Shown here: in pieces, positions 4,546 through 20,992 of the stretch
Layout of the letters: every line of letters begins with the position of its first letter
Position numbering within the stretch: the stretch's first letter is position 1
Notes under the pieces: model-generated
What the model saw: only the letters and a program-made list of their open reading frames with translations
The model's database searches: none
Told to the model about the DNA's origin: nothing
From: Candidatus Aenigmatarchaeota archaeon
GTDB lineage: Archaea > Aenigmatarchaeota > Aenigmatarchaeia > QMZS01
Length of the DNA stretch: 51,880 nt
Direction: 5' to 3'
Assembly: GCA_023134135.1 (NCBI GenBank)
Contig: JAGLVB010000013.1
Location: forward strand, 1 to 51,880
Position numbers and translations under genes: made by a program

Positions 4546-4580
4546 TATAGAAATTATTTTAAATTGATAGTTGATTTATT

Positions 4581-4595
4581 TATTACATTGTAATA
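4581..4595. promoter_or_regulatory. Inverted repeat TATTACA-T-TGTAATA in the mcm upstream region
   Basis: Perfect 7-bp inverted repeat 36 bp upstream of the mcm start (4545); near-identical copies at 13305-13319 and 15783-15797. Confidence 0.5.
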
Positions 4596-4686
4596 TCCAA
4601 TGTTTTTCATAAATTTTTGGTTTTTATTCATAATTATCACTTTACTTGATAGTTTTATTTATGTCTTGTAGATTTGACAGAGCAAC

Positions 4687-5169
4687 TTATATAATTAATT
4701 GCTGTGTTATATCAATTTCTCTTTGTATTTTCTTATAGACAATACAGGTTGCATAAGGTTGTTCTTCCTGTTTTTTCTTTGGAAAATCACTAAAAAATTC
4801 ATCTACCATAACAACCGCATATGCCAGATGTTCTAGGGTATCTATCAAAACAGCTTCTTTAGGTGTTTTATTATAGATTTCCACTTTACTTCCAACTCCA
4901 AGTCTGAATAATTTACAAGTATAAATACAATATGAATCTGGTGACCTCTCCTGTCCCTCCCAAACACAACTCCTTTCCAATAAATCATTGCGGTTTCCGG
5001 AATGTATTCGACGATCCCTATCGGCAAGTACACCAGAACATTGCCTGTAAGGGTACTTACAATACCGACCATCAGGATTTATTAATTTTACATCTTTATG
5101 TTCCCTGTCTTTTTTTGTAACGTAATACTCAACCCTAAATACTTCCTCTAAGTCTTCTAATTCTCTCAT
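4687..5169 (-). CDS. Hypothetical protein with several cysteines
   Basis: 160 aa ORF; CKYPYRQC plus C(VWEGQ), C(IYT)C; no family recognised. Confidence 0.55.
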   Translation of the reverse strand: MRELEDLEEVFRVEYYVTKKDREHKDVKLINPDGRYCKYPYRQCSGVLADRDRRIHSGNRNDLLERSCVWEGQERSPDSYCIYTCKLFRLGVGSKVEIYNKTPKEAVLIDTLEHLAYAVVMVDEFFSDFPKKKQEEQPYATCIVYKKIQREIDITQQLII

Positions 5170-5271
5170 TAATCTATTCCGTTAATTTAATTAATTTAAG
5201 TATGTGGTTTTATATCCCGAATCTTTTAGAAAATAAATATAACGGTAATTATTTAAATTTTAAATAATATA

Positions 5272-5871
5272 ATGAAATATAGTGCAGTATATGAACTTAA
5301 GACCTCTGAGATTAAAGATTATGTTATATTCCCTGTAAATTTAAAAGAAAGTAAAGAATTTGAAGCCTCTACAGATGAAGAAGCTCTTAAGATTGCGCAA
5401 TATATCGGGTATCATATGGCAAAAATCATAAACCCAGAGGAATTTGATATAAAAAAAGTATTTCACAAACTAGACAATTTTTCACAAGTTACAATTAAGG
5501 ATTTATACAATAAAGAAACCAATCATAAATTAGACCTTCCAGTTCAAGAAAGCCATTATGCTGATTCTCTAATTATAAAATCTATCAGGTCGCATGGTAA
5601 AGATTGTCCTGTTGAAATTGTTGGGGTGAATTCTTACCTTTTAGGTCCACATAGTTTTATCGCAAAAAAAAAGTTGCCTGTTGATTCTGCAGATAGAGAC
5701 TTAAAAGAACTTTATTCCAATATTTACAAACCGCTTATGAAAGATGAAGATTTACTTAAAAATTATGGAGAACTCATTTATCCGGAAAATAAATTAATTA
5801 TAACCCCCGATACATATATATTCTTTCTTCACGTAGATGTACGTTTGCATACTGACAATCCTATAAGATAA
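5272..5871 (+). CDS. Hypothetical protein
   Basis: 199 aa ORF with archaeal-looking codon use; no family recognised. Confidence 0.55.
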   Translation: MKYSAVYELKTSEIKDYVIFPVNLKESKEFEASTDEEALKIAQYIGYHMAKIINPEEFDIKKVFHKLDNFSQVTIKDLYNKETNHKLDLPVQESHYADSLIIKSIRSHGKDCPVEIVGVNSYLLGPHSFIAKKKLPVDSADRDLKELYSNIYKPLMKDEDLLKNYGELIYPENKLIITPDTYIFFLHVDVRLHTDNPIR

Positions 5872-5881
5872 ATGTTATAAA

Positions 5882-6442
5882 TCATTCACAATCTCCACAT
5901 ATCCATAAGCCTCTTGAGAATTTCAAATCATTTGTGAATTTGCCGCAAACCTCACATATTCCCTTTACTCTTTTCTTTGCTTCCCCGCCTGGATGGATTC
6001 TTAACCATTCTATTTTATCAAGTAAGAATGTTGGTAAAACACTCATAATATCTTTCATAGTGATTATCCCAATAACCTCTTTTTTCTCTAAATCAATTAC
6101 AGGTAATCTTCTTATTTTATTCATCAGCATTTTATCAGAAGCATGTAAAAGGTCCTCATCAGGAGAAACATATTTTACAGGGCTCTCCATTATATCCTTT
6201 ACTTTTGTTTTTGAACATTTATTCTTTGCAACTGCTTTTCTAGTAATATCTCTTTCAGACACCATCCCTATTAATTTACCTTTATCAATTACAAGAACAT
6301 TAGCTACTCTGAATTCCTCCATTTTTTTTGCAGCAGACTGGATTGTAGTATTTGGCAATACTTGAGCTAATTCAGTTGTCATTGCATCTCTTACCCTCAA
6401 TTTTTTCCTGAAAAAAGATCTTAACATAATATATATCAACAA
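5882..6442 (-). CDS. CBS-domain pair protein with C-terminal zinc ribbon
   Basis: Two CBS repeats (VRDAMTTELAQVLPNTTI..., VKDIMESPVKYVSPDEDLLHA...) and ICEVCGKF...WICGDCE. Confidence 0.85.
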   Translation of the reverse strand: MLIYIMLRSFFRKKLRVRDAMTTELAQVLPNTTIQSAAKKMEEFRVANVLVIDKGKLIGMVSERDITRKAVAKNKCSKTKVKDIMESPVKYVSPDEDLLHASDKMLMNKIRRLPVIDLEKKEVIGIITMKDIMSVLPTFLLDKIEWLRIHPGGEAKKRVKGICEVCGKFTNDLKFSRGLWICGDCE

Positions 6443-6467
6443 TTATAAATAAGTAATTTTAAAATGA

Positions 6468-8699
6468 TTAATTAGTCGTCAATTGTCTTATTTCAGTTGG
6501 CTCTTTTTTACCCGCCCCTCTTATAAATTCACAAAGTCTGCCTGTTCCCGCCTGCACAAGCCGTTCATCATGAGTAACAATAATCACCTGATCAAGCAAA
6601 TCTACTACCTTTGTCCTGAATATCTCAGTAAGATTATCAATGGTATTTGAATCAAGATTATGGGTGGGCTCATCTAAAATAAGAATTTTCATATAAGGAG
6701 CCAAAACAACCGATAAAGCAATTCTCAATACAATAGACGCAATTGATCTTTCTCCCCCAGAAGAAAAACCTTCTACATTTATCCATGTGTTTTTGAGGTC
6801 GCAAAGTTGCAAAAGGTAATCCCTATCCTCTATTTTAAACCTAATTCCTGTATAATCTTCATAAGGGTAAACATAAACCCATATCTCATTCATCACTTCA
6901 TTAAGAGTCTCAATAAATTCTTTCCTAAGAACCTCCTGAACTTCAACAAGTATATTTGAAAAATCAGACAGCGCAGAAGAACCATATTCTAAAAATTCTA
7001 TTTCTGCCTTTGTTTTTTCAAGAAATTCAATCTCTCTTACCATTTGTTTCATCATTTCCTGTTTTTCAGTTTTCAATTCTTCTTTGTGTTTATAATTCAG
7101 TTTTAACTCCAATAAATTTCTCTTCAACTCTTCAACTTCTTTCCTGAGATTCTCAAACTCGGTTTCATTAAATGAAACCTCTTTTATTGCTTTTTCAATC
7201 AAAGTCTTTTTTTCCTCGCATTCTTTTAATTTTTGTTTTTTTATCTCAAGTATCTTCCACTTCCCTAAATTCACTTTTAATTCAAGAAATTCTTCTTTTA
7301 ATTTAGAATAATCTATTTTATTTGCTTTAAGCTCTGCCAGCATATTTTTTATCCTCTCGTACTCTTCCTCTGTGTTTTCAAGTTGTTTTAATCTGTTAAT
7401 GAAAAAAATCGCTTTTTCCTTATTTTTACTTTCTGTTTTAAATTTGGTGTTTATCTCAGAATGTTGTTTTTCAAAATTAATAATCTCTTTGTTCAATTCG
7501 CTTAATTCCTCTTTTTTGGATTTTATCAGTTTTTCTTTTTTTTCCTCATTAAGTTCCGCGTCGCAGGTAGGGCAAGTCCCTTTTACTTTATCTAGATTTT
7601 TAATTGCTTCCTCAAGCGTCCTCTTTCTTAACATCCCGCCAACCAAAAATTCTTTTATTTCCTCTACTTTTGTTTTCAATAACTCAAAGTCATTCTCATC
7701 AAATCCCACAATGAACTCCTGCGCGATTTTTTTATCTGTTAAAGAATTGTTAAGTTCTTTTAGAGTGGATTCAAGACCTGAAATCTTTCTCTCGCGTTCC
7801 AGTTCTTTCTTTTCAACTGCTTCAAGTTCTGATTTTTTATTCTCAAATTCTTTTTCTCTCTCGAAAATATTTCCAATATCCTCTCCCTCCAAATCGCTCC
7901 TGAAAACCGAAATTTTTGCCTCAAGTTCAATAAATTGTTTTTTCCGGGACTTAAATTCTGATTTCAATTTCTCAGATTCTTTATAAATTATTTCATTTTT
8001 AGCCAACAAAAGTGTTGTTTTCTTTATCTCTTCCTCTAAACGCAATCTTTCAGTTTCCAAATAAATTAAACTCAACTCAACCTGTTTTTTATTGGCTCTC
8101 AACTCCTGTTCTTTAATTGAAATAATTGCATCTGATTTTGCGGATTTAAGATTTTTAAATTTGTTTATGATTGAATTGGTTTTTGACCTTGCGGACTCAA
8201 ATTTAGACAATTTCAATAAATCATCAATATGATTCATCCTGTTCCCCGGCGGGATTGTGAGAAAATAATCCATCTGGTTTTGCTCCGCGTAAATCACTTT
8301 TGAAAATAAATCATAATCTATTTTAAGAATATGTTCGATTGCTTCAGTAACCTGCGATGGGTTAATTGCAATTAATTTGTTATTTTTTCTTAATTCTGCG
8401 CCTGAAGATTTACTTATATAAATCTCACGGGAAATCTCATATTTATTATTATCCATTTCAAACCGCAGGATAATTTTAGCGGATTCTTCTGTGAAAGGTT
8501 TTGACATTATCAGGTCTGAAATCTTTATCTTCCTCTTCTGTAATTTTGGTATTGTCCCATATAATGCAAAACATATTGCATCCAGAACACTTGATTTTCC
8601 GGAACCGGAAATACCTATAAAAACATTGTTTCCTTTTGAAAATTCCAGTTTCGTTCTCTTATGAGACCGGAAATTAAATAATTCTATTTCTGTAAACAT
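6468..8699 (-). CDS. rad50: Rad50-like SMC family ATPase
   Basis: Walker A GISGSGKSSVLDAICFALYG, zinc hook CPTCDAEL in coiled coil, signature FSSGGERSIASIVLRIAL, Walker B ILILDEPTHNLD. Confidence 0.88.
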   Translation of the reverse strand: MFTEIELFNFRSHKRTKLEFSKGNNVFIGISGSGKSSVLDAICFALYGTIPKLQKRKIKISDLIMSKPFTEESAKIILRFEMDNNKYEISREIYISKSSGAELRKNNKLIAINPSQVTEAIEHILKIDYDLFSKVIYAEQNQMDYFLTIPPGNRMNHIDDLLKLSKFESARSKTNSIINKFKNLKSAKSDAIISIKEQELRANKKQVELSLIYLETERLRLEEEIKKTTLLLAKNEIIYKESEKLKSEFKSRKKQFIELEAKISVFRSDLEGEDIGNIFEREKEFENKKSELEAVEKKELERERKISGLESTLKELNNSLTDKKIAQEFIVGFDENDFELLKTKVEEIKEFLVGGMLRKRTLEEAIKNLDKVKGTCPTCDAELNEEKKEKLIKSKKEELSELNKEIINFEKQHSEINTKFKTESKNKEKAIFFINRLKQLENTEEEYERIKNMLAELKANKIDYSKLKEEFLELKVNLGKWKILEIKKQKLKECEEKKTLIEKAIKEVSFNETEFENLRKEVEELKRNLLELKLNYKHKEELKTEKQEMMKQMVREIEFLEKTKAEIEFLEYGSSALSDFSNILVEVQEVLRKEFIETLNEVMNEIWVYVYPYEDYTGIRFKIEDRDYLLQLCDLKNTWINVEGFSSGGERSIASIVLRIALSVVLAPYMKILILDEPTHNLDSNTIDNLTEIFRTKVVDLLDQVIIVTHDERLVQAGTGRLCEFIRGAGKKEPTEIRQLTTN

Positions 8700-8872
8700 A
8701 ATTTAATAATTATAATTTTCAAGTGTATTTTTGTCATTTTAGTGAAAATTTATTTATTGAATAGCTCATAAAACAAATAACAATTTATATTTAAAATTTT
8801 AATCTAAATTTATTAAGTAAGTGGTTAATTCAACGATTCAAAAGGTTATTAACTAACGAACTAGTATATAAA

Positions 8873-9142
8873 ATGGCAGATAACGAAGTTTTGGTTGGAA
8901 AAAAGCCTTTGATGAGTTATGTCCTTGCAGTCATAACCCAATTATCAGAAGCAAAAGGGGAAGTAGTCATAAAGGCAAGAGGTAGATCAATCAGCAGCGC
9001 AGTGGACATAGTGCAGATAGTGAAGAATAAATTTGCAAAAGATGCAAAAATAGGTGAAGTGAAGATAGGGACACAGGAAGTAGAAGCAAAAGAAGGAGGA
9101 AAAATAAATGTTTCAACAATAGAGATTTCAATAAGCAAGTAA
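8873..9142 (+). CDS. albA: DNA/RNA-binding protein Alba
   Basis: 89 aa; VLVGKKPLMSYVLAVITQL...VVIKARGRSISSAVDIV is diagnostic. Confidence 0.95.
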   Translation: MADNEVLVGKKPLMSYVLAVITQLSEAKGEVVIKARGRSISSAVDIVQIVKNKFAKDAKIGEVKIGTQEVEAKEGGKINVSTIEISISK

Positions 9143-9161
9143 TTTTTGTTTTTATTATTTT

Positions 9162-9518
9162 ATGTTTTCAGAAAGAAAGTTAATTAGATTATCCTTACTT
9201 ACAATAATAATTGGTTTAACCGGACTATATTTTATAGGTCTATTTGTAGACCCTGAATTTGTTGAAATTGATCATATTGACGAAAATATGGCAGGAAAAG
9301 TTATTTCAACAGAAGGAACAATCTCAAAAATTGCTTTTATTGAAAAATCAAAAACTTTGTTTTTGGATATTAAAGGAGATGAAAAAACCCTGAAAATTAT
9401 TATTTTTAATTCTGAAAGAGATCTCTTTAAGAAAGGTGATGAAATTATCCTTAGTGGAGAGCTGGCAACTTATAAAGGAAAATTGGAATTAATCGCTAGA
9501 GATATTGAGAAGATTTAG
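9162..9518 (+). CDS. Membrane-anchored OB-fold protein
   Basis: N-terminal TM helix followed by OB-like domain (MAGKVISTEGTISKI...FKKGDEIILSGELATYKGKLELIA). Confidence 0.65.
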   Translation: MFSERKLIRLSLLTIIIGLTGLYFIGLFVDPEFVEIDHIDENMAGKVISTEGTISKIAFIEKSKTLFLDIKGDEKTLKIIIFNSERDLFKKGDEIILSGELATYKGKLELIARDIEKI

Positions 9519-9537
9519 CAAAACTTAAAGTAGGGAT

Positions 9538-10536
9538 TTATAACCAAGACTGGAATTTAGAACTCTTCAGCAGATTAACATATATTCTTAATAATATACT
9601 CTGAAATAAAGGAAATCTATCTAAAAATTCCAGCCGGTTATCTCCCTTTTGTTTAATTTTTACAATTTTATCAAGTTCTATAGTTTTATGATTGGGATTA
9701 ATAATTTTCTTTGCAACTTCCTTTCCACTAGTCAAAGCAAAAGAGATGCCCTCTCCGGTGGCTGCTGAAGTCAATCCTGCGGCATCACCTGCTAAAAAGA
9801 TATTGTCAAATTTAATTCCTTTGTATAAGCAATTTGCCGGAGCCCCCTCATATTGAGCTTTTTTATAATCCACTCCGCAATCATCCAAAAATTTGTCAAG
9901 AATTTCCCTTGCCTTATTAACCTTTAAAAATTTTGGATTAAAAAACACCCCTGCAGAAGTATAGGTCTTATGGGGGAATACCCACCCATACCCGGAATAA
10001 AGTGTTTTTGGATTAAAAAACCACTTCATTTTTTTGTATTGTTTTGGGATTATGTATTGTATTCCTATATAAATCTTATTTTCAAGTCCTAAATATTTCC
10101 TGACAATTGAAGCCGCCCCATCAGCACCCACAAGATATTTAAAATGAAATGTCCCTCTGGAAGTTTTTATCTTATTTTTTTCCATTGATTTAACTAAGGT
10201 TTTTTTTAAAATTGTTATGTTTTTTGTATTTTTTATTTTGGTAAACATATATTGCCCTAATTCATATCTATCTAAAGTCCTTATCGGATTATTCATGGAA
10301 ATTTCATATTTTTTATTTCCTAGAAATATTTCTAATTTATTAAATATTATTGTCTTGTCTTTTGGATAATCAAAACCTTTTGTTAATTGAGTCAAACCTC
10401 CGGCGCATATTTTAGGTCCTATTATTTGGTTTTTTTCAATTAATAAAACCGATAGTTTTGTGTTTTTTAATTCTTCGGCGCATTTTAATCCTGCTGGTCC
10501 CGCACCAAGGATAATCACATCATAAGTATTTTTCAT
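9538..10536 (-). CDS. Geranylgeranyl reductase family FAD-dependent oxidoreductase
   Basis: DVIILGAGPAGLKCAEEL dinucleotide-binding motif; FLAGDAAGLTSAATGEGISFALTSG. Confidence 0.88.
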   Translation of the reverse strand: MKNTYDVIILGAGPAGLKCAEELKNTKLSVLLIEKNQIIGPKICAGGLTQLTKGFDYPKDKTIIFNKLEIFLGNKKYEISMNNPIRTLDRYELGQYMFTKIKNTKNITILKKTLVKSMEKNKIKTSRGTFHFKYLVGADGAASIVRKYLGLENKIYIGIQYIIPKQYKKMKWFFNPKTLYSGYGWVFPHKTYTSAGVFFNPKFLKVNKAREILDKFLDDCGVDYKKAQYEGAPANCLYKGIKFDNIFLAGDAAGLTSAATGEGISFALTSGKEVAKKIINPNHKTIELDKIVKIKQKGDNRLEFLDRFPLFQSILLRIYVNLLKSSKFQSWL

Positions 10537-10537
10537 T

Positions 10538-12139
10538 TTATTTCAGACAACTTTTAACAAATCCATAAAATAAAGGAGAAGGCTTTAATAAATTAGATTT
10601 AAATTCAGGATGCGCTTGTGTGGCAACGAAAAATTTATTGTGCGGTAACTCAATAAATTCAACAAGAGGTTTGGTGGGGGAAATACCTGAAAACACCATT
10701 CCTTTCTCCTGAAGGATTTTATGATATTCCGGGTTTAATTCATATCTGTGCCTGTGTCTCTCAGAAACTTTATTTTCTTTGATAAGATTAAATTTATCAT
10801 ATAAATCATAAATTTTTGTTTTTTGTTTTAACTCAGCAGGGCAAGCCCCAAGCCTCATAGTCGCTCCAAGTTCCTTTATATTCTTCTGCTCCGGCAATAT
10901 ATCTATAACAGGATATTTTGTGTTTTTATCTATCTCTGTTGAATGCGCTCCTTCAAGTCCGCACACATTTCTTGCAAATTCAACAACAGCTAATTGCAAA
11001 CCTAAACATAAACCTAAAAAAGGAATATTATTTTTCCTGCAAAAATTTATTGCTTTAATTTTCCCTTCCACTCCTGAAGATCCAAATCCTCCAGGAACAA
11101 TAATTCCATCCAAATCTGAAATTTCCTGTTCTATTTTTGTTGAATCCACCCAGAATATATTTGGTTTTGTATTTAGAGCCACACACGCGTGTTTCACTGC
11201 CTCTTCAACAGAAATATAAGAGTCTGTTAATTCGAAATTTCCCGTGCTTATATATTTTCCAACAATTCCTATATTCACCTCATTTTTGGTATTTTTCAAT
11301 ATATCTACTTTATTTTCCCATTCTGATAATTCTGCATTATTCTCAGTTAAATTTAATTTATTTAAAATCTTTTTTGCAAATTCCTGTTTCTCAAAAACAA
11401 GAGGTAATTCATAAATTGTTTCCAAATCAGGATTGTTGATTATATTTTCTTCTGAAATATTACAGAATAAAGATATCTTTTCTTTCCTCACATTATCTAA
11501 TTCCTCAGGAGACCTGCAAACAATAAAATCCGGGAAAATTCCTAATTCCCTTAATAATCTTACAGATTGTTGTGTTGGTTTGGTTTTTGGTTCACCAAGT
11601 TTTTCAGGGATGGGCACATAAGAAACATGAATAAAAGCAACATTTTCCTCGCTCTGTAATTGCCTCGCCGCTTCCAAAAACAAAATATTCTCATAATCTC
11701 CAACAATTCCGCCTATCTCTATCAAGGTAATATCTGCTCCAGATTTTGTTGAAACCTCCTTTATTCTCCTCTTAATCTCATCAGTCACATGAGGTATTAA
11801 CTGAACGGTTTTTCCAAGATAATCACCTCTCCTCTCTCGGTTAATAACCTCATAATAAACCTGACCTGTTGTGATATTGTGTTCTTTTGTTAGCGGAAAT
11901 CCAAGAAATCTCTCATAATGTCCCAAATCCTGATCTGTTTCCCCGCCATCTTCAGTTACCCAGACTTCCCCGTGTTCTGTGGGTCTTAATGTTCCTGCAT
12001 CAACATTCACATAAGGGTCTATTTTTATTATTGTTGGTTTGTATCCTTTTGCTATTAACACCCTTGAAAGTGATGAAGTTACAATACCCTTTCCCAAACC
12101 TGAAATAACCCCGCCGGTTACAAAAATATAATTTGACAT
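10538..12139 (-). CDS. pyrG: CTP synthase
   Basis: FVTGGVISGLGKGIVTSSL; GATase motif FLGLCLGLQLAVVEFAR; full length 533 aa. Confidence 0.97.
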   Translation of the reverse strand: MSNYIFVTGGVISGLGKGIVTSSLSRVLIAKGYKPTIIKIDPYVNVDAGTLRPTEHGEVWVTEDGGETDQDLGHYERFLGFPLTKEHNITTGQVYYEVINRERRGDYLGKTVQLIPHVTDEIKRRIKEVSTKSGADITLIEIGGIVGDYENILFLEAARQLQSEENVAFIHVSYVPIPEKLGEPKTKPTQQSVRLLRELGIFPDFIVCRSPEELDNVRKEKISLFCNISEENIINNPDLETIYELPLVFEKQEFAKKILNKLNLTENNAELSEWENKVDILKNTKNEVNIGIVGKYISTGNFELTDSYISVEEAVKHACVALNTKPNIFWVDSTKIEQEISDLDGIIVPGGFGSSGVEGKIKAINFCRKNNIPFLGLCLGLQLAVVEFARNVCGLEGAHSTEIDKNTKYPVIDILPEQKNIKELGATMRLGACPAELKQKTKIYDLYDKFNLIKENKVSERHRHRYELNPEYHKILQEKGMVFSGISPTKPLVEFIELPHNKFFVATQAHPEFKSNLLKPSPLFYGFVKSCLK

Positions 12140-12201
12140 TTTTAATCCATTTATATATAGTCTTTGTAATTATATTACACTCAAAAAATTTGGGTTTAAT
12201 C

Positions 12202-13089
12202 TCAAAATCCGTGCGGATAATGCTCTTTAATCATATCTTTAGAAAAAGCAAGTTCCACAACATCATCCATTTTTTTGCTGACTGGTAAAATATAAGTTTC
12301 GCCATATCTGACACCTTTTCCGGTTTTCACAAAAGCGACCATTTTATTAGGGTAAGTTGGATGGTGAACTAAATAATCCTCAGCATTAATAGGATATTTA
12401 TTTTCTCCAAAGTTTTTTGTTCCATCACTAAACCACCCAACCTGATTAGCCACTAAAGCCCCTTTATATTTACCAATTTCTCTTCCGGCTTCCTTTAATA
12501 AATTAATTGAAGCTCTTAAACAGGCTATTTCATGTGTTTGCCTTTCTCTTTTGGTTTCTTGCTCTCCACAAATACCTTGGTCTCCTATTTCCTTTATCAA
12601 ATAGTTTTGCCTAGAATAAAAGGGATGTAAATCAAAATATACTGCATCACCTGCAAACCTCAAAGCAGACATCGCATCAGGAACCTGTTCAGTTAAAATA
12701 TCCCCAACAATAATTTCATTTATTCTTGTATTGTGAATAGGATTTAAATTATAATTATCTAATTCTTTTTTATGAGAATACACAATCTGATAAGAAGTTT
12801 GATCTTTCTCATTAATCATTACATAAGACAAATTTTTCTTTCCTTCCTGAAGATTAAATACACCTTCTTTGTTTAAATCCCCATTTGAATCTCTGTTTAA
12901 ATTTCCTTCTGAAAAAAACAAAATTCTTTCAGCAGGTCTTCCTCTACCCTTATTTAAACCATTTGTATATTTTTGCAACATTATTGGTGTTCCGGGTTCT
13001 AATAAATTATCCAATTTTTGCATATATTCAATAAAATTTTCTCCATCAATTTCACTTTTTCCTTCTGATGTTATTAATTCAATACCCAT
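12202..13089 (-). CDS. Hypothetical protein
   Basis: 295 aa ORF, no family recognised. Confidence 0.6.
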   Translation of the reverse strand: MGIELITSEGKSEIDGENFIEYMQKLDNLLEPGTPIMLQKYTNGLNKGRGRPAERILFFSEGNLNRDSNGDLNKEGVFNLQEGKKNLSYVMINEKDQTSYQIVYSHKKELDNYNLNPIHNTRINEIIVGDILTEQVPDAMSALRFAGDAVYFDLHPFYSRQNYLIKEIGDQGICGEQETKRERQTHEIACLRASINLLKEAGREIGKYKGALVANQVGWFSDGTKNFGENKYPINAEDYLVHHPTYPNKMVAFVKTGKGVRYGETYILPVSKKMDDVVELAFSKDMIKEHYPHGF

Positions 13090-13304
13090 AAATATTAAAT
13101 ATTATAAAAATTTAAGTATTTTGTTGTTGCACTAAACACTCAAAAACCAAATGTTTTTGGTGCGCAAAAATCTCTGATTTTTGATTATTCAATCCTTTAG
13201 AGAGTTTAACAAAGTATTAAGAGATTCCGAAATCTTGCAGATTTTCCATTTAAATCGAGTTATATTCAACTTTTTTAATTTAAAATTTGTGTTTGGAATT
13301 GGGT

Positions 13305-13319
13305 TATTACACTGTAATA
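13305..13319. promoter_or_regulatory. Inverted repeat TATTACA-C-TGTAATA
   Basis: Perfect inverted repeat (extends to TTATTACA-C-TGTAATAA, 13304-13320); same motif upstream of mcm and cdc6. Confidence 0.5.
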
Positions 13320-13436
13320 ATGTTATAGTTATTTTTGTTTAAGAGTTTTATTTTTGTCGGGTTTTCACGATAACAGCTTTAATTACCCTATACTCCTTAG
13401 CATTCTCTTGATTATAATATGGTTTGGTATAATTAC

Positions 13437-13449
13437 TGAACACTGTTCA
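13437..13449. promoter_or_regulatory. Palindrome TGAACA-C-TGTTCA just upstream of the winged-helix gene
   Basis: Perfect 6-bp inverted repeat 26 bp before ATG 13475; arms TGAAC/GTTCA match the half-sites of the downstream array in everted arrangement. Confidence 0.45.
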
Positions 13450-13474
13450 ATTATAAATAATCAATATATTTATT

Positions 13475-13771
13475 ATGGTAAGACCGCAGGATAAAAAGAA
13501 AATAAGTAAGTTATTAAAAATTTTGATTAAACATCCGGAAGGATTGTGGTTGAGGCAAATTTCAAAAGACACTAAAATTGCGCCTTCAACAGTGCATTAT
13601 TATGTAAACCAGACTTTATCTGAAATAATAGAAAATATTGGGGTAAAAGATAAAAAAGGAAAATATTTCGGACTGAGGATTATAAGATTAAAACCAAAAA
13701 TTATAGAAAATGCTGAAAAGGGGGGTTTGGATAATATATTTCATTTTCTCAAATTATCCAAAAAAATATGA
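13475..13771 (+). CDS. Small winged-helix DNA-binding protein
   Basis: 98 aa; KKISKLLKILIKHPEGLWLRQISKDTKIAPSTVHYYVNQTL is HTH-like (LRQISKDTKIAPSTVHYYV). Confidence 0.7.
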   Translation: MVRPQDKKKISKLLKILIKHPEGLWLRQISKDTKIAPSTVHYYVNQTLSEIIENIGVKDKKGKYFGLRIIRLKPKIIENAEKGGLDNIFHFLKLSKKI

Positions 13772-13895
13772 TTTTTAATAGAAAATAATATAAATATGGT
13801 GTGAAGTTCACGTGAACCTAATATTAAAACGTGAACTTAAAAAAGGAGAAATGAATATTATATGAAATTGATAAAAAGATTATAAATTATATTTG

Positions 13896-13911
13896 AAGTT
13901 CACGTGAACTT
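13896..13911. repeat. 16-nt perfect palindrome AAGTTCACGTGAACTT
   Basis: Read directly. Confidence 0.95.
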
Positions 13912-13930
13912 GGGTTTCTTATATTAATTT

Positions 13931-13979
13931 ATGTGAACTTAAATCCTAAATATATTGGTGTTTAAAGCCAAAACAATAA
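13931..13979 (+). repeat. 49-bp direct repeat, copy 1
   Basis: ATGTGAACTTAAATCCTAAATATATTGGTGTTTAAAGCCAAAACAATAA; 4 mismatches to copy at 14476-14524. Confidence 0.9.
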
Positions 13980-14128
13980 TTTTATATAAATTTTAAGTAA
14001 GTTCACGTGAACATCCTCTTAGAGTGTGAACTTGGTGTGAACTTGATAAAGTAAATTAGATGATAATTTGAAGTTTATATGAACAAAAAATATTAATGTG
14101 AATTAAATATAAACTTAATAAATTATAT

Positions 14129-14150
14129 CTCAAGTTCACGTGAACTTGAG
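14129..14150. repeat. 22-nt perfect palindrome CTCAAGTTCACGTGAACTTGAG
   Basis: Read directly; longest version of the array palindrome. Confidence 0.95.
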
Positions 14151-14381
14151 TTGTGTATGTGAACTTAACGTGAACTTAAAAATAGAAATATGAATTTGAA
14201 ATGAAATTCACATGAACAAAGAATACTAACGTGAACTTAAAATAAATATATTGATTTTGCGTGAACCAAACATGAATTTAGTATTTAGTTCACGTGAACT
14301 TGATTCCCGAACGTGAACTTAACGTGAACTAACCAAACCATAAAATCTAAAGTAAAACCATAATTTAACAAACCACCAAAC

Positions 14382-14420
14382 AATTTTTTTATATATTATT
14401 TAAATAACTATATATTTATT
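14382..14420. other. AT-only tract, candidate DNA-unwinding element
   Basis: aattttttt atatattatt taaataacta tatatttatt, a single C in 39 nt, inside the largest gap (154 bp) of the array. Confidence 0.4.
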
Positions 14421-14475
14421 GTACACAATAAAATCCCTGAAGTTCACGTGAACAAAGAATACAAACGTGAACTTA

Positions 14476-14524
14476 ATGTGAACTTAAATCCTAAAAATCT
14501 TGGTGTTTAAAGCCAAAATAAGAA
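14476..14524 (+). repeat. 49-bp direct repeat, copy 2
   Basis: ATGTGAACTTAAATCCTAAAAATCTTGGTGTTTAAAGCCAAAATAAGAA. Confidence 0.9.
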
Positions 14525-14575
14525 GTTCTCCTCAGCAAGATAATATTGTGTGAAGTTCACATGAACTTAAATATT

Positions 14576-15634
14576 ATGGGAGAAATAGAAAATTATAGAA
14601 ATTGGTTGGAAAAACAAGGTCTATCTAAAAATCCTTTCACACTTGAAATTAATCCCTCACTTCTTGTTGGATATGAAAAACAAATAACAAACCTTCTAAA
14701 AAATATAGAACAAAAACAAAAATTAATATTAATCAGCGGCGCAACCGGAAGCGGAAAAACAAGCTTGATTACTTATTTAATTTCCAAAAATAATAAGTTC
14801 ATTTTCCTGAGCAAGCCCCCAAGACAAACATCTCAGTTAATTAATATCTCAGATAAGTTTATTAAAGAATTGCCTTTATTTTCAAGAATATTTATAAAAA
14901 AACCAAAAAAAATTGAAGATGTCCCGCAATTTTTGAACAATATTATAAAAGAACCTAAAGTGCTCTATATAGATGAAATACATGAAGCAAGTATTGAGGT
15001 ATTGGAATGGTTTAGAATAATATCAGATCAGGTTCAAAATCTATCAATAATTTTCTCAGGTCTCCCAATATTTGATGAAATATTGACAAAAAACCTGGAA
15101 ACCCTTAAAAAAAGAATTATTGAAAAAATAGAACTTAATGCTCTGACAAAAGAAGAAACAGAACAATTAATAAGAAAAAGAATTGAATTTGTTGGGGGGA
15201 AGGGTATAAATCCATTCACACCAGAAACTATAGATTATATATATAATAGAACAGGTGGATTTCCAAGGGATATTATAATTCTATGTAATAAATTGTTAAA
15301 TACAACCGCAGAAAATAATACTGAATATATAGATATAAATTTAATAAAAGAAAAACCTGATAAAATTGAAAAAGTAAATGATTTTGGAAAACTCACAAAT
15401 TTATCTGTAAAACAGAAAAAAATAATAGAACTTATCCTTGAACACGAACCAATAGCGCCAAATAAACTTATTGAATTTACAACAGAATATCCCTCAGAAA
15501 AACATGCTTTGAGAGCAGTAAATAATTTATTAAAAAGACTTATATTTGAAGGTTATGTTGAAAGGAAAAAAACCGGAAAAACATATATTTATAATCTTAC
15601 ACCCTCAACACGAACTTTATTAATAAAATCTTAG
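14576..15634 (+). CDS. AAA+ ATPase (ExeA/Cdc6-like STAND/AAA) with C-terminal winged helix
   Basis: Track ORF 14546 starts at TTG; more likely ATG 14576 (MGEIENYRNWLEKQGLSKNPFTLEINPSLLVG). Walker A ISGATGSGKTSLIT, Walker B VLYIDEIHEA, sensor-2-like GGFPRDIIILCNKLL, C-terminal wHTH. Confidence 0.82.
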   Translation: MGEIENYRNWLEKQGLSKNPFTLEINPSLLVGYEKQITNLLKNIEQKQKLILISGATGSGKTSLITYLISKNNKFIFLSKPPRQTSQLINISDKFIKELPLFSRIFIKKPKKIEDVPQFLNNIIKEPKVLYIDEIHEASIEVLEWFRIISDQVQNLSIIFSGLPIFDEILTKNLETLKKRIIEKIELNALTKEETEQLIRKRIEFVGGKGINPFTPETIDYIYNRTGGFPRDIIILCNKLLNTTAENNTEYIDINLIKEKPDKIEKVNDFGKLTNLSVKQKKIIELILEHEPIAPNKLIEFTTEYPSEKHALRAVNNLLKRLIFEGYVERKKTGKTYIYNLTPSTRTLLIKS

Positions 15635-15782
15635 TCCTACCCTTTAGTTTCCTATGGAACTTAAAAATAATTTTTTTGTCGGCAGACACATAAAATCAAA
15701 ATTAAAAAAATAATTTTTTCATATTTTTATTAATTTTTAAAAATATTTATAATAAATGTATTATATAACTATATATTATAGA

Positions 15783-15797
15783 TATTACACAGTAATA
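15783..15797. promoter_or_regulatory. Inverted repeat TATTAC-ACA-GTAATA upstream of cdc6
   Basis: Third copy of the TATTACAYWGTAATA motif. Confidence 0.45.
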
Positions 15798-15885
15798 ATT
15801 ATCAATAAATATAATTATAATAAGTCCAGTGGAAATGAGGGGGTCACGTTACCATACTTAATAATATATTCTCTTGTCGAGAAGT

Positions 15886-15895
15886 CTATATATAG
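15886..15895 (+). promoter_or_regulatory. Putative TATA box for cdc6 (leaderless transcript)
   Basis: CTATATATAG centred about 24 nt before ATG 15915, a spacing typical of archaeal leaderless promoters. Confidence 0.5.
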
Positions 15896-15914
15896 TTCCA
15901 AAGGAAATATAGGT

Positions 15915-17111
15915 ATGCAGGAGAAACTTAGAAATTATTTTTCAGAATATCTGAATAAAGAAAGTTTTTTTATTGACAAAAAATTATTAACTCATAGCTA
16001 TGTGCCAGAAGAGATATTACACCGTGATGAACAAATTTCAACAATCGCAAAAATTCTCGCTCCTTCTTTGAAATTAGAACAACCTTCAAATTTATTTATT
16101 TATGGCACCACAGGAACAGGAAAATCAGTGGCCATAAAATATATATTTAATGAAATGCTCGCGGCGAATACTTCAAATTTTAATGCGATTTATGTTAATT
16201 GTAAATTAAGGAAGGTGTCTGATACAGAATATAGGATGCTGGCATATATCCTAAGAGAACTGAATTTCAAGGTTCCGGACACAGGTCTGCCAACAGAAAC
16301 ATTATATACTAAATTATTTGAATTAGTGGATTCAAAAAAACAGATAATTATTCTGGCTTTGGATGAACTTGATGTTTTAATAAATAAAATAGGTGATGAG
16401 ATTTTATATAACCTGACAAGGATAAATTCAGAATTAGTAAATTCAAAAATAAGTATTATTGGAATTTCAAATGATATTTCATTTACTGATAAATTAGACC
16501 CAAGAGTAAAAAGTTCTTTATCCGAGGAAGAAATTATTTTCCCTCCTTATAATGCCCCCCAATTAAATGATATAATTGAACAAAGGGCAAATAAAGCGCT
16601 TAAACAGGATGTTTATTCTGAAGGTGTTATAAGAAAATGCGCTGCCATAGCCGCTCAGGAGCAGGGAGATGCAAGGAGGGCTTTGGATATGATAAGAGTT
16701 GCTGCGGAAATTGCTGAGAGGAATGATGAAATAAAAATCACTGAAAAACATGTGGGTTTGGCAGAACAAAAACTTGAATTAGACCGCGTTGTGGAATTGG
16801 CAAAAATGCAGCCAAGACATTCACAAGTAACTCTTTATTCAATATTGAAATTATTTGAAAAAAGCGAGGATAATATATTAACAGGAGATGTTTATGAAAT
16901 TTATACTCAATTATGCAAGAGAAATGGGTATAGAATTTTAACACAAAGAAGAATATCTGATTTAATTTCAGAACTTAATATGTTAGGTATAATTTCAACA
17001 AAAGTTATTTCAAAAGGGAGGTATGGGAGGACAAGGGAAATCAGGCTCGCAATTGCAAAAAAACCCTTTGATATTTTAAAAAACCATTTTTCCACATTAT
17101 TTGAAATATGA
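15915..17111 (+). CDS. cdc6: Orc1/Cdc6 replication initiator
   Basis: Track ORF begins 15756, but the first 53 residues look noncoding; MQEKLRNYFSEYLNKESFFIDKKLLTHSYVPEEILHRDEQI then Walker A IYGTTGTGKSVAIKYI, Walker B ILALDELDVL, sensor 2 GDARRALDMIRVAAEIAE. Confidence 0.95.
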   Translation: MQEKLRNYFSEYLNKESFFIDKKLLTHSYVPEEILHRDEQISTIAKILAPSLKLEQPSNLFIYGTTGTGKSVAIKYIFNEMLAANTSNFNAIYVNCKLRKVSDTEYRMLAYILRELNFKVPDTGLPTETLYTKLFELVDSKKQIIILALDELDVLINKIGDEILYNLTRINSELVNSKISIIGISNDISFTDKLDPRVKSSLSEEEIIFPPYNAPQLNDIIEQRANKALKQDVYSEGVIRKCAAIAAQEQGDARRALDMIRVAAEIAERNDEIKITEKHVGLAEQKLELDRVVELAKMQPRHSQVTLYSILKLFEKSEDNILTGDVYEIYTQLCKRNGYRILTQRRISDLISELNMLGIISTKVISKGRYGRTREIRLAIAKKPFDILKNHFSTLFEI

Positions 17112-17713
17112 TATTAACATATGAAAAAATCCGGGAATTAAAACAACTTGAAAAACAAGATAAATTACAGGATTTACCTGAAAATTTTTCAATAGCTGTT
17201 GCTGAATACATTAATTTGAAGAAAGGGTCAGACGAAGAGGTTTCAGCAAAGAGTTTAATTAAGAGTTTGTATGATTTAAGAAAGAAGAAAATTATTAATT
17301 TAGCGGGATTATTTTACAAAACAGATAAAATTCCAGAAAATATAGAGGGTATGGAGGAAGAATTATATTTAAATACAGTAGAAATAATGAGAAAATATAA
17401 CATTTCTTTTGAAGGATTATTTAATAAACAATCTGAAACCGAAAGAACAGAATCAAAAAATAATAAACAATATTCTCAGAGCACAAAAACTAAAAATATG
17501 TTTAATTCTCTACAAATTAAAGAAGATACCGCAAACAAACCTTATGATAATAATTCACAAGAAAATAAATTAAAGGTTGTATTTTTATCAGATATACCTG
17601 AAATCATAACCCCTACAGGGGAAATATGTTCTTTCAAAAAAGAAGAAGAAAAGGAACTTAACACCGAATTTGCAATACAGCTTAAAGAACAGGGGTTTTG
17701 TAGATTTAAATAA
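17108..17713 (+). CDS. Archaeal GINS subunit (Gins51/Gins15-like)
   Basis: N-terminal LPENFSIAVAEYI, LRKKKIINLAGL; C-terminal B-domain VVFLSDIPEIITPTGEICSFKKEEEKELNTEFAIQLKEQGF. ATG overlaps the cdc6 stop. Confidence 0.8.
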   Translation: MILTYEKIRELKQLEKQDKLQDLPENFSIAVAEYINLKKGSDEEVSAKSLIKSLYDLRKKKIINLAGLFYKTDKIPENIEGMEEELYLNTVEIMRKYNISFEGLFNKQSETERTESKNNKQYSQSTKTKNMFNSLQIKEDTANKPYDNNSQENKLKVVFLSDIPEIITPTGEICSFKKEEEKELNTEFAIQLKEQGFCRFK

Positions 17714-17722
17714 TAATTATAT

Positions 17723-18109
17723 ATGGATGTTGTAGTATCTGCGGTTTTGGTTCTTGTGCTTTCTTTATCTGTAGTTGGCATGGTGATACAATATGGCGCT
17801 CCTTTAATACAGGAACAGAAACAGGAGATGGATTTTGAACAGGGAAAAAATCTGGTAAATTATCTCTCTCTCACAGTTTCTGATTTAATTTCAGAGCCTA
17901 TAAATTCTTCAAGAGTAATTGAATTGAGCTTAAGAAAAGGTAAAATAGAATTCTTAGATAATAAAATATCTTTTTACCTTGGGTATCAAGAATACAATAA
18001 AGAGTTTTCAAAAGTAATATTCTCAGAGATAGATATTCTAATAGGAGAGACAAAAGTAAGGCTTACTAAGAAATTGAAGGACGAAATAGAAGTGGAATTA
18101 ATAGGTTAA
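17723..18109 (+). CDS. Small membrane-anchored (pilin/archaellin-like N-terminus) protein
   Basis: 128 aa; N-terminal hydrophobic helix MDVVVSAVLVLVLSLSVVGMVIQYG followed by polar domain. Confidence 0.5.
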   Translation: MDVVVSAVLVLVLSLSVVGMVIQYGAPLIQEQKQEMDFEQGKNLVNYLSLTVSDLISEPINSSRVIELSLRKGKIEFLDNKISFYLGYQEYNKEFSKVIFSEIDILIGETKVRLTKKLKDEIEVELIG

Positions 18110-18264
18110 TTCTTAAATAATTAAGGTCTTACTATATAATTTAGTGTGGGTTTTGTTTATTCCTCAATAGGTTTAATACCCCGCAGCTCATTCACCCTTT
18201 AGATGATATATCATTAGCAAAGCTAACGAATGTGCTGCAAAGTGAGTGGAGCGAAGGGCGATAT

Positions 18265-18891
18265 TTAAGTTAATTTAAGAATACCCTCAATATTTTTAAA
18301 GATATAATTTGGTTTTATTTTTTCAGCGGATTTTTTATTTAACACCCCTGTAAGAACAGCGCAGGAGTTTATTTTTGCGTTCTTTGCCATTTGAATATCA
18401 TAAGGAGAATCTCCAATAAATATTGTTTCATTTTTCTCGATTTTAAGGTGTTTTAAGATTTTAAAAATCATTTCAGGGTCTGGTTTGGTTTTTTTAACTT
18501 CTTCTGAGCAGATATGATAATCAATATATTCACTTAAATCATATTTTTCAATGATTTTATCAACAAGATAATTATTATTTCCTGTGGCAATCGCAATTTT
18601 CATATTTTTTTGTTTTAATTGCCTGAATGTTTTTTCAACAAAAGGAAATAGTTTAAATTTTTCAATACCAATTTTATCTTTTTCCATCTTAAAATATTTT
18701 ATTATTTCTTCTTTATTTTCCGGAGTAAAATATTCAATAATTTCTGTATAAGGTTTGCCAAATTGATTTTTAATATCTCTTTCATTAACTTCCATTCTAT
18801 ATTTTTTAAATGTTTTTTTGAAAAGGGAAGCCCATATATTAATAGAATTTGTTAATGTTCCATCCAAATCAAAAATAAAAGCTTTAAACAT
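18265..18891 (-). CDS. HAD superfamily hydrolase
   Basis: FIFDLDGTLTNS; IAIATGNNN; KTKPDPEMIF; IFIGDSPYDIQMAKNA. Confidence 0.9.
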   Translation of the reverse strand: MFKAFIFDLDGTLTNSINIWASLFKKTFKKYRMEVNERDIKNQFGKPYTEIIEYFTPENKEEIIKYFKMEKDKIGIEKFKLFPFVEKTFRQLKQKNMKIAIATGNNNYLVDKIIEKYDLSEYIDYHICSEEVKKTKPDPEMIFKILKHLKIEKNETIFIGDSPYDIQMAKNAKINSCAVLTGVLNKKSAEKIKPNYIFKNIEGILKLT

Positions 18892-18906
18892 AAAAAAAGT
18901 AAAAAA

Positions 18907-19440
18907 TTAAGAATACTTCTTTAGTTTTTTTTCAATCAAACCTAAACCCTCTTTAGCGTCGCTTATCTTTTTCCCGCCAACACAAACAATACTCCCGCTT
19001 GAGAATACAAGGAAAGATACTTTTGGTTCTGTTAACCTGCATATAAGACCTGGGAAATTCTCAGGTTCATATTCTGAGTCTTCCATCTTAAAAGCAAGAT
19101 TTTCAAGATTTAAATCATAGCCTAAAGTGCCTACAGCAACGATATTCTCAATTTTTGTTTTGTATTTATCTTCTATTTTTACACCAAGTTTTTTTATCAT
19201 TTTCATTATTTTTTCTATTCCTGCTTTGGCTTCTTTCTCTGTTTTTGAACCAACACACACAATAGTTCCTGACCTGAAAACAAGAGCTGTGATGTTTGGA
19301 TCTTTTAATCTCATTACGAGTCCGGGAAATGCTTCTGGTTCATATTCTGCATCCACATATTCCTCTGCAATTTTCGTTAAAGGAAATATAGCTTCTACAT
19401 GCGCGGATACGACCACATTTTGAATTTTTATTTCTTCCAT
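18907..19440 (-). CDS. tbp: TATA-box binding protein
   Basis: Two symmetrical repeats (YEPEAFPGLVMRLKDPNITALVFRSGTIVCVGSKTEKEA / YEPENFPGLICRLTEPKVSFLVFSSGSIVCVGGKKISDA). Confidence 0.97.
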   Translation of the reverse strand: MEEIKIQNVVVSAHVEAIFPLTKIAEEYVDAEYEPEAFPGLVMRLKDPNITALVFRSGTIVCVGSKTEKEAKAGIEKIMKMIKKLGVKIEDKYKTKIENIVAVGTLGYDLNLENLAFKMEDSEYEPENFPGLICRLTEPKVSFLVFSSGSIVCVGGKKISDAKEGLGLIEKKLKKYS

Positions 19441-19498
19441 TATAGAAACATTAAAATATTAATTAAAGCTATATATAAGATTATTTAGTAAAGGTTAT

Positions 19499-20992
19499 CT
19501 ATTTTTTAATAACTTGTTTTGTTAAATCAATTATTTCCTTGATATTGATTACTTTAAGGAAAATCAACAAACCGACAAATAAAATAATGGAGGTGGAAAA
19601 ACAGATAATCACTTCGAGAATTAGATTAGAGGTGATAATCAAATTCTTTAACAGATAGATGGATAAAAGTGAAACAACTCCTGAGACTAAAGTAAGACCC
19701 CATTCCCTAAAAGGAATTTTTATTTTTATTAATTTTCTTAATTCCACAAAACTGAATAAAAACATTGTGATATAAGTAATTAAAGTAGATATTGCAGCCC
19801 CGGTAATCCCGATTATTGGAATAAACACCAAATTTCCTATTAGATTTAGTGTTGCTCCCAGATATATTATTTTTGTGTATTTTTTAGGTTTACCCAGTCC
19901 GTTAAAAATAACCCCATTTATCTGGACTATTGAGAAAAAGAGAGCTCCAATTGCAAGGATTTTTAAAACATCTGAGCCCTGCGCATAAAAAGAACCGAAG
20001 AATAGGTTAAGAAGTTCTTTTGAGAAAGAGAAAGCCATTAGAGAAAGTGGAATTATCACAATCCAGATATACCTGTAAATAAGGGAAATTCCTTTTTCCA
20101 GACCTTTTATTTTTTTGGTTTTTAATTCCACCACAAGTGGGAATAAAACTGTTGAGAATGCGCCTGAAAAAAACCAAAGAAGTCTTGCTGTTGGCTGGGC
20201 GGTCTGGTAAATACCAACTTTTTCCAAACCAAGAAAAAATGTAATTAAGATTGTGTCTGTATCTCCTATAATCATACCTGCGGCTGAGGATAGCATTAGA
20301 GGCAATCCATATAAAACCAACTTTTTTGACAATTCTTTATTGAAGCTTAGTTTTACTTTAGGAATTAATTTCAATACTAAAGGGGAGAATAAAAGAAATA
20401 CAAAAATATAGGAACACAGGAAACCGATAGCAGGCGAAAGATAAGAGAAATTTAATAAGATAAATAAATAGGTAAAACCAAACCAAGACCATAACCTGCA
20501 GAATTCCACAAAAGCATACATTCTCATTTTTTGGAAACCCTGAAGCACCCCATAGAAGGTACTAAAACCAACCTGTACAAAATAAGTGATTGCGAGTATT
20601 TTTAAAACAAAGACTCCTTTTGAAATATCACCTGAAAGATGAAGATAATTTATTGCGAAAAACTCAGCGAAAGTGAAAATAATACCTGTAATAATCAAAG
20701 CAAATATCATATGAACAAAAAATACAAAATAAATAGAACTTTTTAATTCTTTAAGTTTGTTGCCTGATTTGAATTTTGAGATGTGGTAAACCAGACTCCC
20801 GGATAATCCAAAATCATTAAATAAAGCAAATAAACCAACTAAAGAAAGACAAGCATAGAATAACCCATAATCTGCGGGAGTGAGATTTGAAGTAAGGATA
20901 AACCTAAGGGAATAAGAAGCTATTGCTCCAAGGATGCTAAACAAGAAGATGAAGAAAGCTCCTGAAGCTGCTTTTTTCAGATAGTTAACCAT
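19499..20992 (-). CDS. Polysaccharide flippase (Wzx/MATE-like)
   Basis: 497 aa, ~12-14 TM; TPADYGLFYACLSLVGLFALFNDFGLSGSLVYHIS. Confidence 0.85.
   Translation of the reverse strand: MVNYLKKAASGAFFIFLFSILGAIASYSLRFILTSNLTPADYGLFYACLSLVGLFALFNDFGLSGSLVYHISKFKSGNKLKELKSSIYFVFFVHMIFALIITGIIFTFAEFFAINYLHLSGDISKGVFVLKILAITYFVQVGFSTFYGVLQGFQKMRMYAFVEFCRLWSWFGFTYLFILLNFSYLSPAIGFLCSYIFVFLLFSPLVLKLIPKVKLSFNKELSKKLVLYGLPLMLSSAAGMIIGDTDTILITFFLGLEKVGIYQTAQPTARLLWFFSGAFSTVLFPLVVELKTKKIKGLEKGISLIYRYIWIVIIPLSLMAFSFSKELLNLFFGSFYAQGSDVLKILAIGALFFSIVQINGVIFNGLGKPKKYTKIIYLGATLNLIGNLVFIPIIGITGAAISTLITYITMFLFSFVELRKLIKIKIPFREWGLTLVSGVVSLLSIYLLKNLIITSNLILEVIICFSTSIILFVGLLIFLKVINIKEIIDLTKQVIKK

Follow-up and report, generated by a model that had tools for sequence, protein, structure and literature searches.

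Throughout the class, a phased array of palindromes and half-sites follows the gene of an AAA+ ATPase and not orc1. In the window, which is the whole stretch of 51,880 nucleotides analyzed here, this array lies at 13806-14566, immediately upstream of the ATPase gene. On balance we favor the reading that it is the cognate DNA site of that ATPase, linked to a replication origin and not itself the origin. The Orc1 origin looks like a separate element, an inverted pair of classical ORBs at 15633-15846, about 1.1 kb from the array. The original prediction, which took the array for the origin of the replicon or a linked partition site, contained neither this ORB pair nor the helical phasing described below.

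The array in the window

A motif search placed a lattice of TTCACGTGAA palindromes and GTGAA half-sites, with a counterpart across the class, at 13806-14566. All of its sites fall within the noncoding DNA that separates the ORF of a 98-aa winged-helix protein (wHTH98, 13475-13771, plus strand) from the ATG of the ATPase at 14576. Six palindromes are exact copies of GTTCACGTGAAC: palindromes 1 to 4 (13806-13817, 13898-13909, 14001-14012 and 14134-14145) and two more at 14288-14299 and 14442-14453. Three others are degenerate, namely ATTCACATGAAC with two mismatches at 14206-14217, GTTCACATGAAC with one mismatch at 14555-14566, just 5' of the ATPase ATG, and a weaker site at about 14072. Between the palindromes are exactly 12 lone GTGAAC half-sites, 12 of 12 on the plus strand. 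Their geometry is fixed, at +25 and +36 from the palindrome starts 14001, 14134, 14288 and 14442, and the palindrome at 13806 also has a half-site at +25.

Allowing up to two mismatches to GTTCACGTGAAC, the window holds 10 matches where 0.77 are expected, and 0 of 100 shuffles reached 10. The inventory of nine palindromes (six exact, three degenerate), at least twelve half-sites and a noncoding location given by the original prediction thus holds, as do the neighbors it named: an AAA+ ATPase, Orc1/Cdc6 and GINS, the last with a weak match just at the Pfam cut-off. The home genome (986 kb, about 1 Mb, in 31 contigs and 73% complete) has a single copy of the array; at up to one mismatch, one isolated palindrome is the sole match outside it. 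An Rfam search returned no match.

Between blocks of the array is an AT-rich, TATA-like segment (14380-14430), where GC falls to a minimum of 0.08 some 195 bp 5' of the ATG. It is probably the ATPase promoter, and could conceivably be an unwinding element.

An array that follows the ATPase gene

Relatives were grouped into numbered families, f1 being the home family; their MAG assemblies are fragmentary. Of 60 relatives, 50 have the ATPase, as do 55 of the 74 phylum genomes searched (requested completeness of at least 85%), and the closest named relative, a Candidatus Aenigmatarchaeota MAG, has an ATPase 90% identical to that of the window.

Within 450 bp upstream, exact TTCACGTGAA occurs 83 times at ATPase loci versus 0 times at the 28 orc1 loci. 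With up to one mismatch, the ATPase upstream regions (58.6 kb in total) have 201 palindromes versus 42 in 655 kb of flanking sequence, an enrichment of about 54-fold, and in most families the palindromes stand immediately upstream of the gene. Several families have sites at -14 to -55 from the ATPase ATG, such as TTTATATATTCACGTGAA in f5. The ORBs show the opposite distribution: 24 of 28 orc1 loci have ORB-like sites in the 450 bp upstream, versus 6.6% of random slices and 0 of 46 regions upstream of the ATPase. Only in the home genus is orc1 a close downstream neighbor of the ATPase; outside it, orc1 has ORBs and no lattice. The expectation that the array would be conserved at cdc6 loci in relatives therefore failed, and on this split between ORBs and lattice we reject the array as an ORB origin. 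Location, core sequence and 10.5-bp phase are conserved across families whose intergenic sequence is otherwise different.

The ATPase and orc1 are nevertheless linked. Outside f1, the two genes share a contig in 25 genomes, at 5-60 kb from each other; they are divergent in 24 of these (the exception is G078), where the array is on the side that faces orc1. In f2 and f15, for instance, the array and the ORBs are more than 15 kb apart. In some genomes, e.g. G013, G037 and G032, they are on different contigs. Neither the ATPase nor the main Orc1 occurs in families f19 (11 genomes) and f17 (three genomes), G040, G045, G055 and G070 being examples; a divergent Orc1 paralogue is all that most f19 genomes retain, and none was detected in some genomes of f17. 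One f20 genome has Orc1 without the ATPase and another lacks the two, and a further genome (G018) has the ATPase without Orc1. Shared ancestry could account for part of both patterns: the linkage may reflect inherited gene order, and a single evolutionary event may lie behind the co-absence.

Half-sites recur once per helical turn

Phasing was measured in one genome from each of 16 families, with a positional jitter of ±5 bp as the null. The best period of the GTGAA/TTCAC half-sites is 10.50 bp (mean cosine 0.69, 752 same-strand pairs), with a pooled z of 27.5 against the jitter null. The phasing is individually significant in 13 of the 16 families, the others being f4, f8 and f10. Same-strand distances peak at 11, 21-22, 31, 42, 51-53 and 62 bp, with almost none between, while half-sites on opposite strands prefer offsets of -5, +6 and +17. 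Scrambled control words which do not overlap the motif have no 10.5-bp period, though they form few pairs.

The phase also locates the array within chromosomes. In a genome assembled as a single contig of 875 kb (G031), the region upstream of the ATPase contains no exact palindrome, yet it is the best phased cluster of the whole contig, scoring 7.8 versus 4.0 for the next. The top phased cluster in 320 kb searched of a second genome (G051) is likewise at the ATPase.

A separate, probable ORB origin

The inverted ORBs lie between the ATPase and orc1. The minus-strand copy, GTTCCATAGGAAACTAAAGGGTAGGACT, with GTTCCATAGGAAACTAAAGGGT inside it, is at 15633-15660, and the plus-strand copy, TCCAGTGGAAATGAGGGGGTCA, is at 15825-15846; they were identified by an ORB search and class comparison, and the window has no perfect ORB core with G-run besides those at 15633 and 15825. 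The two ORBs flank a 164-bp AT-rich stretch (15661-15824), a probable unwinding element. Downstream on the plus strand follow orc1/cdc6 (15915-17111, with a likely start at 15915, although the longest ORF starts at 15756) and a GINS subunit (Sld5 / Gins23-like, 17108-17713). The layout agrees with published archaeal origins, in which ORBs flank an AT-rich region adjoining cdc6 (PMC4010727).

Once gene orientation is corrected for, GC skew at third positions has its best switch at 15.25-16.25 kb, at the ORBs and orc1 (0.255 leading, 0.018 lagging), and 0 of 1000 permutations reached this value. Because a breakpoint at 12.75-13.25 kb fits almost equally well, skew by itself does not distinguish the ORBs from the array. 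Raw skew over whole contigs is weak, with no clear switch, in G031 and in part of G051, and lends no weight to an origin at the ATPase. The skew switch, along with orc1, GINS and MCM nearby, means that the region very probably bears an origin; that part of the original prediction stands, and its placement of the origin at the array gives way to the ORB pair.

Like an archaeal ORB/oriC with Orc1/Cdc6, the array is a set of noncoding repeats beside a replication AAA+ gene, with an AT-rich segment, at one locus. Unlike it, the array has no TCCAnnGGAA core plus G-run, is not found directly upstream of orc1/cdc6 across relatives, and tracks the ATPase gene. The original prediction was right that the core, TTCACGTGAA, lacks the G-rich ORB extension, and its alternatives, a linked partition array or an unrelated recognition system, may still hold.

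The surrounding segment (2548-20992) is an information-processing gene cluster with MCM, Rad50, Alba, the ATPase, Orc1, GINS and TBP. A second palindrome, TATTACANTGTAATA, occurs at 4581-4595, 13305-13319 and 15783-15797 of the window and at 2137-2151 of L179, elsewhere in the home genome, upstream of MCM, wHTH98, orc1 and dnaG. At up to one mismatch there are only five such sites in the genome, the fifth inside an ORF, and relatives in the genus have the palindrome around their ATPase-orc1 regions too. It may mark a replication-gene regulon.

The ATPase as candidate reader

The proposed reader of the array (14576-15634, plus strand) is an AAA+ ATPase of the AAA_22 type, ExeA/MuB/TnsC-like, with a BlaI/MecI-like winged helix at its C-terminal end, at about residues 270-352. 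Among the 28 aligned ATPases, AAA_22 is matched by all and a BlaI/MecI-type winged helix by 21. The closest models are ExeA/XrtA-ATPase and MuB-like (TIGR03015, 6e-26; PHROG 296, 'DNA transposition protein', 6e-16). The protein falls outside the Orc1/Cdc6 family, scoring 16.7 bits against TIGR02928 versus a cutoff of 181.3, and Cdc6_C is absent from the families listed. A PDB profile search gave generic P-loop matches only, plus one weak match to a MecI winged helix. AlphaFold, run with a two-row alignment (the window protein and L045), gave a pLDDT of 40, and the oligomer model draws on family resemblance instead.

MuB/TnsC-type proteins assemble on DNA. These, together with IstB and ExeA-type ATPases, are the closest sequence families; the protein described here differs in carrying a C-terminal winged helix and in having a fixed chromosomal array, and no transposase or secretion gene was recognized beside it. 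Relatives of 25-30% identity, e.g. a haloarchaeal AAA ATPase, are found on plasmids among the matches listed, and viral contigs gave one partial match (37%) at a contig end. One haloarchaeal plasmid AAA ATPase (L178, 3968-5107), 25% identical over 98% of the query, lies near a TFB gene. Among open-licence papers, nothing was found on Aenigmatarchaeota origins or on this ATPase.

In the clade of f4, f10 and f16, a conserved winged-helix His is changed to Asn and palindromes are almost absent, although f10 keeps many TTCAC half-sites. On the tree, the change from His to Asn and the loss of palindromes amount to one event.

The most likely account has the ATPase as reader, an autorepressor with an origin-linked function, all of which we infer from sequence. 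The winged helix would read each GTGAA/TTCAC half-site, unless a regulator from some other locus takes that part. As the half-sites recur about every 10.5 bp on one helix face, ATPase protomers can align there, and they would line up at about one per turn. The TTCACGTGAA palindromes, where two protomers would meet, would seed assembly, and the AAA+ domain would convert the bound protomers into an ATP-controlled oligomer at a single chromosomal locus. The complex would repress its own promoter; such autoregulation is likely because blocks of the array bracket the TATA-like segment. The size and uniqueness of the array and its link to the origin suggest a further role, and the complex would serve segregation or control of Orc1 initiation.

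Other readings of the array

A less likely but serious alternative is that the array acts solely as an autoregulatory operator, with no origin role: binding of the ATPase, or of a different regulator, to its many phased sites would repress the ATPase promoter. The sites overlap the promoter and start region and bracket the TATA-like element, there is one locus only per genome, and the minimal form, in f8, is just five half-sites around a TATA-like segment. Elsewhere, however, the lattice reaches 48 half-sites over 0.6-1 kb, which is more than an operator needs, and an operator leaves the origin linkage, the consistent divergence from orc1 and the co-absence with the main Orc1 unexplained.

Somewhat less probable, though still to be taken seriously, is a chromosomal centromere-like partition site (a parC/parS analogue) for which the ATPase would be binder and motor or the adaptor of the motor. 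The nearest likeness is type II parC of plasmid R1 (ParMRC), which has one part on either side of the par promoter, represses that promoter when its flanking repeats are wrapped, and binds one dimer per iteron (PMC5016525). The array shares with it short, helically phased direct repeats of about one turn (11-bp spacing), in blocks around the promoter of the presumed cognate ATPase, and it forms one origin-linked locus per chromosome. It differs in that R1 uses the RHH adaptor ParR with an actin-like ATPase, whereas here one AAA_22 protein carries the winged helix and the lattice is chromosomal. Membership of the parC-like family fails because no ParM or ParR adjoins, and none of ParM, ParA and TubZ is an AAA+ protein. 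SegAB of Sulfolobales likewise has palindromic sites upstream of an ATPase gene near an origin (PMC12284271), but SegA is ParA-like, SegB is an RHH protein and their TCTAGA-type sites are scattered round the chromosome, whereas each genome here has one lattice and an AAA+ ATPase. The families listed as matching the ATPase or wHTH98 include neither ParA nor RHH.

It is unlikely that the array is itself an origin, alongside the ORB origin or replacing it, and that its initiator is the ATPase and not Orc1, in the manner of the WhiP/oriC3 pair. Its blocks do bracket a very AT-rich segment upstream of its own ATPase gene, the gene-corrected skew switches within 13-16 kb, and 20 of the 28 ATPases weakly match the Pfam family ORC-CDC6-like (best 6.5e-6). 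Against this, canonical ORBs lie nearby, the skew optimum falls between the ATPase and orc1, G031 has no skew extremum at the ATPase, and the orientation of the lattice changes between families.

Slightly less likely again is wHTH98, encoded just upstream, as the reader. It adjoins the ATPase in many families, but the lattice is retained in f5, f11 and f18, where it does not. It also has a different palindrome in its own promoter: TGAACACTGTTCA, at approximately 13440-13453 and shortly 5' of its start, is of a type, TTGAACASTGTTCAA, found exactly or in close variants in f1, f3, f6, f13, f14 and f15. This is a probable wHTH98 autoregulatory operator, and wHTH98 is therefore disfavored and probably does not read the array.

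Two 55-nt blocks within the array (13928-13982 and 14473-14527) share 89% identity, which points to local segmental duplication, but the class-wide conservation of location, core and 10.5-bp phase makes neutral repeat expansion or a mobile-element remnant extremely improbable as its origin.

Implications

Control of replication and segregation in DPANN archaea has been little studied. Two cis-elements which were merged in the earlier reading are now separate: an ORB origin of classical type, and a phased lattice paired with an AAA+ protein of its own. The 10.5-bp phase rule, kept while the surrounding intergenic sequence changed, is a sharp mark of a cooperative nucleoprotein complex, and the ATPase and the lattice make a testable protein-DNA pair. 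More tentatively, the pattern may point to a chromosome-maintenance system of Aenigmatarchaeota, so far undescribed, in which one AAA+ protein would be both sequence-specific binder and ATPase, assembled with a protomer at each DNA turn of one origin-linked lattice, and would segregate the chromosome or license Orc1 origins.
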